A stretch of DNA of 64,000 bases from assembly GCF_002865545.1 (NCBI RefSeq), contig NZ_CP025543.1, forward strand, positions 248,001-312,000, given 5' to 3'. The stretch comes from Spiroplasma monobiae MQ-1 (GTDB lineage: Bacteria; Bacillota_I; Bacilli_A; Mycoplasmatales; Mycoplasmataceae). Below, piece after piece: positions 14,476 through 23,910 of this stretch. The position numbers and the translations under genes are program-made. Numbering within the stretch: the stretch's first letter is position 1; the number at the start of each line of letters is the position of its first letter. A model generated the notes under the pieces. The model had not been told where the DNA came from and made no database searches. It saw nothing but the letters and a program-made list of their open reading frames with translations.

Positions 14476-14503
14476 TAAAAAAAGAAACTATATAAATAGT
14501 TTC
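14476..14503 (-). terminator. Terminator after ribU
   Basis: On the minus strand, GAAACTAT and ATAGTTTC pair just after the ribU stop, followed by a run of T. Confidence 0.75.
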
Positions 14504-15204
14504 TAAAATAAATGTTTATTAATTAGTTTTACAAGTATCTTTAAAGATACTGCCAAAAAAATTAAATTTAATATATATTTAATTAATGTAACACCAAAAC
14601 CAACCAATAAAAATAATAATCAACTCTCTTTTAGTATTTTTTCATAGTCTGGATAAATTAGTATATATAAATCAAATACAAATATGTCATTATATGACAT
14701 TGTAAATACTCCCGTTAAAAAAATAGATAATATACCTGAAATGATAACTATTCCAAGATAGTATTTAATTTTATTCTCGCTCTTAACTTTTAATAATCAA
14801 TATTTTTTTAAAAAGAAAAATGTAATAGAAAAAACAATTAAAAATGTAATATCAGCTAGTGTCATTGCCAAAACACCAACCCAGTCACTTCCACCAGGAA
14901 CTACTATTCTTATAGAATTAGATACAATACAAATAATAGATGCATATGTAAGATTTGTTGATATATATGCAAACATAATTCCAAAAAAGGACATTTCAAT
15001 TGTATATGTATTCATTATTAGTAAAAGTCCAAAAGTGTATTTATTGATAATTGTCAAAACTATTTCAAAAGCTAATAATAAAGAAATAAAAGCTATTTTT
15101 TTTATATCCAATTTATAACTATCTTTTAAAACTAAACGTCAATTATACTTATTTATCTCAGCAAAATCATATTTGTGTGATCAAAATCCGTATTGTTCTT
15201 CCAT
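14503..15204 (-). CDS. ribU: ECF transporter S component for riboflavin (RibU-like)
   Basis: 233 residues, with about six hydrophobic segments between residues 34 and 225 and a hydrophilic N-terminus of about 30 residues. It is a membrane S component that binds a vitamin and works with a shared energising module (EcfA/A'/T) not in this window. The substrate call rests on the FMN riboswitch immediately upstream on the same strand; riboflavin or FMN uptake is essential where flavins cannot be made. The start is ATG 15204, with AAAGGG eight bases before it, placed after the riboswitch-linked terminator. Confidence 0.82.
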
Positions 15205-15290: not shown

Positions 15291-15412
15291 CTAGGCATTT
15301 TCTCACATCCGGACTGTACCGTCGGTTTCAGAATTCCACTGAATCATGCTCTTTTTGAGCTCATAGACTTTCACTATCGGTAAGGAATTTAACCTTGCCC
15401 CGAAAATGCTCA
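15291..15412 (-). ncRNA. FMN riboswitch (RFN element)
   Basis: Read on the minus strand, the segment has the conserved RFN blocks: CGGGGCAAGGTTAAATTCC, then TACCGATAGTGAAAGTCTATGA (compare the usual TACCGGCGGT...AGTCC), GTGGAATTCTGAAACCGAC, and GGTACAGTCCGGATGTGAGA. The closing P1 helix is GCATTTT (15295-15301) with AAAATGC (15403-15409). It senses FMN and controls ribU through the terminator downstream. Block order, spacing and P1 leave little doubt. Confidence 0.96.
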
Positions 15413-16445: not shown

Positions 16446-17468
16446 ATGGCAGGAAAAAAACCAATATATGTTTCTATGGATTTAGGAACAGCCTATACTT
16501 TAGTTTATGTAGAAGGTCAAGGAATCGTTTATAACGAACCTTCAATCGTAGCATACAGAATTAAAGAAAATAAAATTGTAGCAGTTGGAGCGGAAGCTTA
16601 TAAAATGATCGGTAAAGGTAATAAGAACCTAAGAATCGTTAGACCAATGGTTGACGGAGTTATTACTGATATTAAAGCAACTCAAGCACAATTAAACTAT
16701 ATCTTTGCAAAATTAAGAATAGAAAAAACTTTAAGAGGATGTGTAATGTTATTGGCATGTCCATCAGTTATTACTGAATTAGAAAAATCAGCACTTAAAA
16801 AAATTGCAACTAACCTAGGTGCATCAAGTGTATTTATTGAAGAAGAAGTAAAAATGGCTGCATTAGGTGGGGGAGTAAATATCAATGCTCCAACAGGAAA
16901 CCTAGTTGTTGACATGGGTGGAGGAACTACTGACGTTGCTGTTATATCATCAGGTGATATAGTTCTTTCAAAATCAATTAAAATAGCTGGAAATTACTTA
17001 AATGAAGAAATCTTAAAATTTGTTAGAGCACAATACGGAATGGAAATTGGTATTAAAACAGCTGAAACTATTAAAATAAGCATCGGTTCATTAGCAAAAC
17101 ATGCAGATGAAAAATCAATGAAAGTTTACGGACGTGATGTTGTTTCTGGATTACCAAGAGAGATCGAAATTACTCCAGAAGAAATGAGAGAAGTTTTAAA
17201 AGTACCATTATCAAGAATTATCGAATTGGTAGTTCAAGTTCTTGAAGCTACACCAGCTGAATTGGCTGGAGACATTTTCAGAAATGGTGTTGTCTTATGT
17301 GGTGGAACAGCATTAATAAAAGGTATTGCTAAATACTTTGGTGATACATTACAACTACCAACAAAAGTAGGAGAATCTCCATTACTTGCTGTTATTAATG
17401 GAACAAAAAAATACGAATCAGAAGTATTTGAAATGTTAAGAGCAGAAAAAAACGAATTAGATTACTAA
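16446..17468 (+). CDS. mreB: Actin-like protein MreB
   Basis: 340 residues, the usual length. Phosphate-1 (MDLGTAYTLVY), phosphate-2 (DMGGGTTDVAV) and adenosine (LCGGTALIKG) motifs of the actin fold are all present. MreB polymers support cell shape; spiroplasmas carry several mreB paralogues linked to helical form and motility, and most other mollicutes have none. This copy stands alone between a GAGG site and a strong terminator. Which paralogue it is cannot be told without a tree. Confidence 0.96.
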   Translation: MAGKKPIYVSMDLGTAYTLVYVEGQGIVYNEPSIVAYRIKENKIVAVGAEAYKMIGKGNKNLRIVRPMVDGVITDIKATQAQLNYIFAKLRIEKTLRGCVMLLACPSVITELEKSALKKIATNLGASSVFIEEEVKMAALGGGVNINAPTGNLVVDMGGGTTDVAVISSGDIVLSKSIKIAGNYLNEEILKFVRAQYGMEIGIKTAETIKISIGSLAKHADEKSMKVYGRDVVSGLPREIEITPEEMREVLKVPLSRIIELVVQVLEATPAELAGDIFRNGVVLCGGTALIKGIAKYFGDTLQLPTKVGESPLLAVINGTKKYESEVFEMLRAEKNELDY

Positions 17469-17492
17469 AAAAATGCCGTAAGGCATTTTTCA
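17469..17492 (+). terminator. Terminator after mreB
   Basis: AAAAATGCC pairs with GGCATTTTT around GTAA, directly after the stop codon. Confidence 0.88.
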
Positions 17493-17536
17493 TTGGGAAA
17501 TTATTGGAAAAAAATTCTAAAAAAAATTACATTTTT

Positions 17537-17566
17537 TATAACTTTTTTTATCTACTATGCTATAAT
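17537..17566 (+). promoter_or_regulatory. Extended -10 promoter for the 17573 RNA
   Basis: TGCTATAATG contains a consensus extended -10 (TG-N-TATAAT, hexamer at 17561-17566); a weak -35 (TTATAA) lies 18 bases upstream. No gene starts downstream on this strand before the terminator at 17724. Confidence 0.65.
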
Positions 17567-17572
17567 GAAATT

Positions 17573-17752
17573 GAAATTACAAGAGATTGTAATTTTACAT
17601 ATATCAATCAGGGATGTTGAAAAAAAGTTCAAAAGAATAACGTGATATCTAAATTTTAAAAGTAAATTCTCTAGTGTTTTTGGGATGAGTGAAATATTAG
17701 AAAAATTACTTTTATTTAGATATAAAAAATTCTCTTACGAGAATTTTTTTTA
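17573..17752 (+). ncRNA. Unidentified structured small RNA, about 175 nt
   Basis: This stretch between mreB and the ferredoxin gene has a consensus extended -10 at its 5' side and an intrinsic terminator at its 3' side (17724-17750), with no credible reading frame. It can fold into a 5' hairpin (AAATTACA with TGTAATTT), an ATATCA/TGATAT stem, and a long 18-bp helix (17645-17665 with 17706-17723) broken by a 3-nt bulge and capped by a loop of about 40 nt. The conserved blocks of tmRNA, SRP RNA, RNase P RNA and common riboswitches are absent. A 6S RNA seems unlikely as the ends do not close on each other. Confidence 0.5.
17724..17752. terminator. Terminator of the small RNA, shared with the ferredoxin gene
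   Basis: ATTCTC and GAGAAT pair around TTAC, with A tracts before and T tracts after, so it can act on the plus-strand RNA and on the convergent ferredoxin transcript. Confidence 0.8.
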
Positions 17753-17758
17753 TTTTAT

Positions 17759-17941
17759 TTATTCGTCACCTATTTTAACAGCACCAGTAGGACACACCAT
17801 TTGTGCTTCAACCAATTCAAGATCATTTTCATTAGCTTCTGCAAAACCATCTTCATCCATGAAAAGAGTACCAGTTTCATCTACTTGCACACATGCCATA
17901 CACCCTATACACATTGGTTTATCTATTCAAGTTTTTTTCAT
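17759..17941 (-). CDS. [4Fe-4S] ferredoxin
   Basis: 60 residues, too short and TGA-split to show under the standard code. The cluster motif CIGCMAC (C11, C14, C17) is followed by a fourth cysteine in VCPTGAV near the C-terminus, giving one [4Fe-4S] site; the second cluster of 8Fe ferredoxins is absent. GGAGATGA precedes ATG 17941. A possible user in this window is IspG, which needs an electron donor, but this link is inference. Confidence 0.92.
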
Positions 17942-18032
17942 AAAAATCATCTCCGTTTCATTAATATAATAACAATAATTTTAATTATTTCTATATTTAA
18001 TTTATAATATATAGGTTAATGGGGTGAAAAAA

Positions 18033-23529: not shown

Positions 23530-23910
23530 TGATTGAGATTAATCTGAATCAACTGCTATATTTGAAAGATAATATAGAGGAAACTCCACGCTTGCACATT
23601 CTGAGATGAATGTAGTGATTGTGCTAGAGGAAAAAATAACTCTAGGTACCAATTTAATTGGTAACGACTTAAGCATAATCTAAGGGTACTTGTACCTATG
23701 ATGAGCTTTTTAAAGTGCCACAGAGACGAATAGCTAGAAATAGTGAAATGGAACGCGGTAAACTCCACAAGCAAGAAACTCAAATTTTGGTAGAGGAGCT
23801 TAAGGGTGAGGAACTGAACAAGCCTTTGGGATCGCTTCGGCGATAGATAGATAGTTGATACACGCAAGTGTTACAAAACGTGGGTTACGACGATTTAATC
23901 TCACTTTATT
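23530..23910 (+). ncRNA. rnpB: RNase P RNA (type B)
   Basis: The conserved regions are in order: GAGGAAACTCCACGCTTGCAC (P4 5' strand and CR-I, 23577 on), CCACAGAGACGA, AAATGGAACGCGGTAAACTCC, and near the 3' end ACAAAACGTGGGTTACGAC. The closing helix P1 pairs TGAGATTAA (23534-23542) with TTAATCTCA (23895-23903). The fold and location after gpsB match type B RNase P RNA of Firmicutes. It trims the 5' ends of tRNA precursors. Open frames crossing it are chance. Confidence 0.96.

Follow-up and report, generated by a model that had tools for sequence, protein, structure and literature searches.

The locus lies in a stretch of 64,000 nucleotides (the window, to which all coordinates refer) of the genome of Spiroplasma monobiae MQ-1, a wall-less, insect-associated bacterium. 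From the sequence and the list of open reading frames, a complete transcription unit is predicted on the plus strand, within the interval between an mreB-like gene and a convergent ferredoxin gene. The interval runs from the mreB hairpin through an A-rich block, a -35 region, an extended -10 box, a 5' hairpin, a linker and a long hairpin to a terminator, as follows:

16446 to 17468, plus strand: mreB-like gene (cell shape; 340 aa), the upstream neighbour, an open reading frame whose orthologue adjoins the RNA in 9/9 genomes.
17470 to 17490, plus strand: terminator-like hairpin 3' of mreB, AAAATGCC-GTAA-GGCATTTT, seen in the sequence, with a comparable hairpin after mreB in 9/9 genomes.
17506 to 17531, plus strand: A-rich upstream block, at about -67 to -42, UP-element-like and partly conserved in nine genomes.
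17538 to 17543, plus strand: weak -35 region ATAACT, 17 nt upstream of the -10 box and with a conserved T run after it.
17556 to 17566, plus strand: extended -10 box TATGCTATAAT.
17573 to 17751, plus strand: predicted small RNA of about 179 nt, on the evidence of promoter, terminator, fold (z = -4.66) and conservation in nine genomes.
17573 to 17596, plus strand: 5' hairpin of 10 bp that begins exactly at the predicted 5' end, GAAAUUACAA-GAGA-UUGUAAUUUU.
17603 to 17635, plus strand: linker, partly single-stranded, with the motifs AUCAA, (A)AGGAUGUU and GUUCAAAAG, from the alignment of nine homologues.
17645 to 17723, plus strand: long irregular hairpin with 31 pairs in the minimum free energy (MFE) fold; its sequence diverges among species and its pairing is kept.
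17682 to 17691, plus strand: apical-loop motif GGGAUGAGUG, kept in 8/9 homologues.
17724 to 17751, plus strand: intrinsic terminator, hairpin AAAAAAUUCUC-UUAC-GAGAAUUUUUU (17724 to 17749) and then a T run.
17759 to 17950, minus strand: ferredoxin gene (63 aa), the convergent downstream neighbour, an open reading frame under code 4 with orthologues in 19/20 genomes of the genus.

The start at 17573 was placed by reference to the -10 box and the 3' end was set at the T run of the terminator. The hairpin at 17470 to 17490 is predicted to separate the RNA from mreB transcription. The initial annotation had set an unassigned structured RNA between mreB and the ferredoxin gene, and an element in the same interval was found in nine genomes.

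The consensus extended -10 box reported in that annotation is present at 17556-17566 and, as is expected of an intergenic small RNA gene with a promoter of its own, its TGnTATAAT core is unchanged in all nine homologues, where one such match per 64 kb would be expected by chance. The box stands at a constant distance of 5 nt ahead of TGAAATTA in 9/9 genomes, and in this genome it is TGAAATTACAAG that begins 5 nt past it. In the -35 region, TAACTTTTTTT is retained in seven of the nine homologues and TAATATTTTTT in the other two. Further upstream, identity in the spacer alignment of the nine genomes is 0.80 at 17508-17519 vs 0.68 at fourfold-degenerate mreB sites, and the sequence of the A-rich block, resembling an UP element, suggests such a role.

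The region 17573-17752 folds at -42.3 kcal/mol (z = -4.66), a stability that was equalled by none of 200 shuffles. The minus strand folds equally well and the strand was therefore assigned from the promoter, not from the fold. One of the two smaller stems described initially is the strong 10-bp hairpin at 17573-17596, which has pairing probabilities of 0.81-1.00 in 9/9 homologues and a change from C-G to U-A at one pair; mean pairwise identity over these first 24 nt is 0.82-0.84 vs 0.68 at fourfold-degenerate mreB sites in the spacer alignment. The linker of the homologues retains AUCAA, an (A)AGGAU-like block and GU(U/C)CAAAAG. The bulged helix described as having 18 bp exists but is larger, with 31 pairs in the MFE fold arranged in four segments between 17645 and 17723, and in this genome none of 300 shuffles was equally stable. 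Comparison of the folds locates a conserved motif in or near its apical loop: in most relatives the loop reads UGAAUGAGUG or UUAAUGAGUG (it is absent in G013), and the consensus (U/G)(G/U)(A/G)AUGAGU(G/A) is found in eight homologues although the flanking arms are unalignable. At the end of the RNA, where a small RNA gene is expected to have a terminator, the intrinsic terminator of the initial annotation proved to be real, its hairpin and T run being conserved in 9/9 genomes with compensatory changes from C-G to U-A and from U-A to C-G. A consensus terminator scan with a GC rule misses the hairpin at 17724-17749, which is AT-rich and has few G-C pairs; this bidirectional hairpin probably serves as the terminator of the convergent ferredoxin gene as well as of the small RNA.

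Homologues in the genus were found by a DNA search and the syntenic interval was located by a search for ferredoxin. Nine of the 20 genomes have the element, in one copy each and flanked by mreB and the convergent ferredoxin gene (G000, G001, G002, G004, G007, G009, G013, G017 and G019). The element is missing from G005, G010, G011, G014, G015, G016 and G018, in which mreB is followed by one hairpin and then directly by the ferredoxin gene; the interval is rearranged in G006, G008 and G012, and in G003 the search found no ferredoxin match. Here G002 is taken as S. diminutum, G005 as S. taiwanense, G015 as S. culicicola and G018 as S. apis. A covariance model built from the promoter and the 5' half, and searched with strict filters, finds a single copy in each of the nine holders (E 5e-10 to 1e-18); the 89 other genomes searched gave no match below E 0.2. 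BLAST look-alikes in G027, G020 and G015 were dismissed as chance or coding matches, and a ferredoxin scan of a contig collection returned only unrelated MAGs. In a tree of Der proteins the nine holders form one clade (support 100/99), and S. taiwanense, which does not have the RNA, falls just outside it with moderate support (88/86). On balance, and taken jointly with the preferred explanation given below, it is probable that the RNA originated in a single Spiroplasma clade or has persisted only there. The initial reading as an undescribed mollicute small RNA is supported, no Rfam match having been found and covariation being present in relatives, with the limit that the element belongs to a clade of nine Spiroplasma species and is not a general mollicute RNA.

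Over much of the long-hairpin region identity is only 0.26-0.55 and the arms are hardly alignable. Default MAFFT alignments put the 3' arm in the wrong place, and an alignment-free arm-swap test was therefore chosen, in which each species' 5' arm was paired in turn with the 3' arms of all the others and the duplex energy was calculated. The native assignment gave -114.7 kcal/mol vs a mean of -62.9 and was the best of 5040 permutations for seven lineages; when eight sequences were used, 2 of 40320 permutations did as well. RNAalifold on the plain MAFFT alignment gave weak interior support, with double changes at 4 of 27 pairs, because the arms are misaligned there. The covarying pairs that the initial annotation proposed to seek in relatives, and the compensatory change expected of a small RNA gene, are thus found by the arm swap and are weak in the MAFFT alignment; only nine related sequences were available. 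Shuffling the arms seldom yields a fold as good in G000, G007, G019, G002 and G001, the result is marginal in G004 and G009, and no clear fold into the shared long hairpin was obtained for G013 and G017. The arms coevolve while their sequence drifts, and the arm-swap result would also be compatible with mutation as the cause, through repair between the inverted repeats.

This raises the possibility that the interval holds no functional RNA, and that fast-evolving AT-rich inverted repeats lying between two convergent terminators, together with a chance promoter, yield an inconsequential transcript in which the complementarity of the arms is kept by template-switch repair and not by selection. 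Palindromes can be homogenised mutationally, which together with the poor conservation of the long hairpin and the loss or absence of the element from the sister species and elsewhere in the genus would fit such a scenario. It is nevertheless considered unlikely. First, the loop and linker motifs, which are not palindromic, are conserved while their flanks are not. Second, the spacing of the promoter is invariant, and identity in the 5' hairpin exceeds that of fourfold sites. Third, all nine genomes, which are compact, retain the element as a single copy at one site.

The initial annotation found no reading frame across the element, and this holds insofar as the homologues share no conserved frame, as is expected of a small RNA gene; however, a TTG-started frame of 158 aa, read under code 4 and antisense to the ferredoxin gene, does cross it. 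Several short frames are present under code 4, frames and start codons differ across the homologues, and an AGGA-like block precedes an NTG codon in G007, G013, G017, G019 and G002. If AAGGAU served as a Shine-Dalgarno sequence, the transcript could be a small mRNA or a dual-function RNA, with a peptide started from the NTG ahead of TTCAAAAG. The (A)AGGAU-like block stands 5-9 nt ahead of NTG in most homologues and FKRKxDYL-like starts are seen in G007, G017 and G013, all of which would agree with translation. A conserved small peptide was rejected as a candidate, since the start-codon position is occupied by AAG in this genome and by CTG in three others, and length differences break the frame in G019, G001, G004 and G009. 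Furthermore, the sole in-frame candidate peptide differs after codon 9 between G007 and G017, despite nearly identical Der proteins in these near-identical genomes. A conserved peptide at the locus is unlikely, and the reading as a small mRNA or dual-function RNA is judged to be distinctly improbable.

The same block may take part in an alternative fold, as the predictions for UAUCU, at the foot of the long hairpin, favour the 3' arm as its partner in five species and the linker AGGAU in four, an exchange that under the small-mRNA reading would switch translation. It may represent a switch, or merely uncertain folding. A bistable, clade-specific regulatory RNA, in which UAUCU would have the Shine-Dalgarno-like AGGAU block and the 3' arm of a fast-evolving hairpin as alternative partners and in which the conserved loop or a translated leader would signal to a target in trans, is given a low probability; the bacteria concerned have very few transcription factors.

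The initial annotation recognised none of tmRNA, SRP RNA, RNase P RNA, 6S RNA or the common riboswitches in the element, and an Rfam scan of the locus at gathering and relaxed thresholds gave chance matches only, for example to csRNA, at E 0.19 and on the opposite strand. Its exclusion of tmRNA, SRP RNA and RNase P RNA was also borne out: these are, like the element, stable structured RNAs from their own genes, but their family models have no match at the locus and each was found elsewhere in this genome, the RNase P RNA being of class B (RF00011, 253 bits) and located at 23541-23892 (plus strand) of the window. The tracrRNA of type II CRISPR systems is likewise a stand-alone structured RNA with a terminator, and was rejected as no CRISPR locus adjoins the element and 8/9 holders, G000 included, lack cas9. 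The distribution of cas9 in the genus is patchy, with nine of the 20 genomes having the gene and, among the holders of the RNA, only G004. Given that tmRNA, SRP RNA and RNase P RNA lie elsewhere and that cas9 is mostly absent, the element is neither one of these housekeeping RNAs nor a tracrRNA. A riboswitch or leader was rejected because no gene on the same strand lies directly downstream, the ferredoxin gene being convergent, and a UGUUCA/UGAAUG pseudoknot, possible by eye, is broken in species with UGUCCA.

Another likeness is that to 6S RNA (RF00013), which is also a long irregular rod-like hairpin of similar length, and this raises the possibility that the element is a functional analogue that binds RNA polymerase. 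The Rfam model found no 6S RNA in 60 genomes of the order and detected it in the B. subtilis, E. coli and Lactococcus controls, so that the place of 6S RNA might be vacant, and the element does form an irregular rod of about 80-100 nt. However, the closing stem of 6S RNA joins its 5' and 3' ends and encloses a large central bubble, whereas the 5' end of the element forms a hairpin of its own and no such bubble is conserved. As the 6S covariance model also has no match at the locus and the element is absent from most of the genus, an analogue of 6S RNA is held to be barely credible.

The arrangement of the locus might instead indicate an element that acts in cis, as a spacer insulating convergent mreB and ferredoxin transcription or as an antisense RNA to either gene. 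The convergent layout, the shared bidirectional terminator and the presence of the same neighbours in 9/9 genomes are all compatible with this. It is, however, thought very unlikely: mreB has its own terminator ahead of the RNA, the seven genomes without the spacer manage with mreB, one hairpin and the ferredoxin gene, and pairing of the linker with the translation-start regions of mreB and ferredoxin was no better than that of shuffles.

Among known RNAs, the MCS RNAs of Mycoplasma capricolum are small RNAs of a related mollicute group; the element stands apart from these in that its covariance model has no match in the related genera that the search covered. Bacterial intergenic trans-encoded small RNAs, for example those of Firmicutes and those predicted in Mycoplasma (PMC5088518), likewise have their own promoter and terminator, a length of about 180 nt, no conserved open reading frame and a clade-restricted distribution, while the element differs in having no Rfam family, known target or RNA chaperone. 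The element belongs to this known class, the intergenic small RNAs, but to none of the families tested here. It is suggested, with considerable confidence, that the locus is a real, undescribed and clade-restricted small RNA gene, as predicted from its sequence. The RNA, whose transcription is itself predicted, probably has a regulatory role, and the mode of action that we favour, with rather less assurance, is that of an independent, clade-restricted small RNA that acts in trans by base-pairing and is protected by its 5' hairpin.

According to this model, RNA polymerase would start at about 17573 from the strong extended -10 promoter and would stop at the terminator near 17751. The hairpin at the 5' end would probably shield the transcript from 5' exonucleases, while the long hairpin would present its conserved purine-rich loop and the linker, with its conserved motifs, would be partly single-stranded. 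The linker, the UGAAUGAGUG loop or both would provide the seed for base-pairing in trans, and the remainder would serve as a scaffold. The target trials covered the complement of the loop and the two neighbouring genes, and the loop-complement search returned sites inside genes, mostly antisense, with no shared target found. In the nine holders CACTCATTC, the complement of the loop, clearly outnumbers its reversed control, and its copies are mostly antisense inside conserved genes, as in a ptsI-like gene (from a reading of the frame); this excess is probably a codon effect rather than a set of small RNA target sites.

Literature searches found no description of a Spiroplasma small RNA, and the locus is a candidate that is present in one copy and whose origin on the tree is clear. 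In S. melliferum, 24 transcription factors were counted (PMC5138195) and, because spiroplasmas have very few such factors, post-transcriptional control is a plausible substitute. Strand-specific RNA-seq is public for S. diminutum and S. taiwanense (SRR3466528-SRR3466531; PMC5726471), and as the former holds the RNA and the latter does not, the claim of a small RNA is directly testable. In that study only tmRNA and rnpB were named as highly expressed non-coding RNAs in both species, and intergenic reads were regarded as low. Its contigs were subject to a high coverage cut-off and were annotated by Rfam, ARAGORN and Bcheck, so that an S. diminutum RNA that was moderately expressed or unannotated would go unreported, and the library was made from fragmented mRNA, in which short RNAs may be under-represented. 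The result thus argues against very high expression under those conditions and not against a transcript.

Elsewhere in the window, an FMN riboswitch (RF00050, 103 bits) is found at 15293-15411 on the minus strand, upstream of a minus-strand gene for a membrane protein (14503-15204) that is probably a riboflavin transporter.
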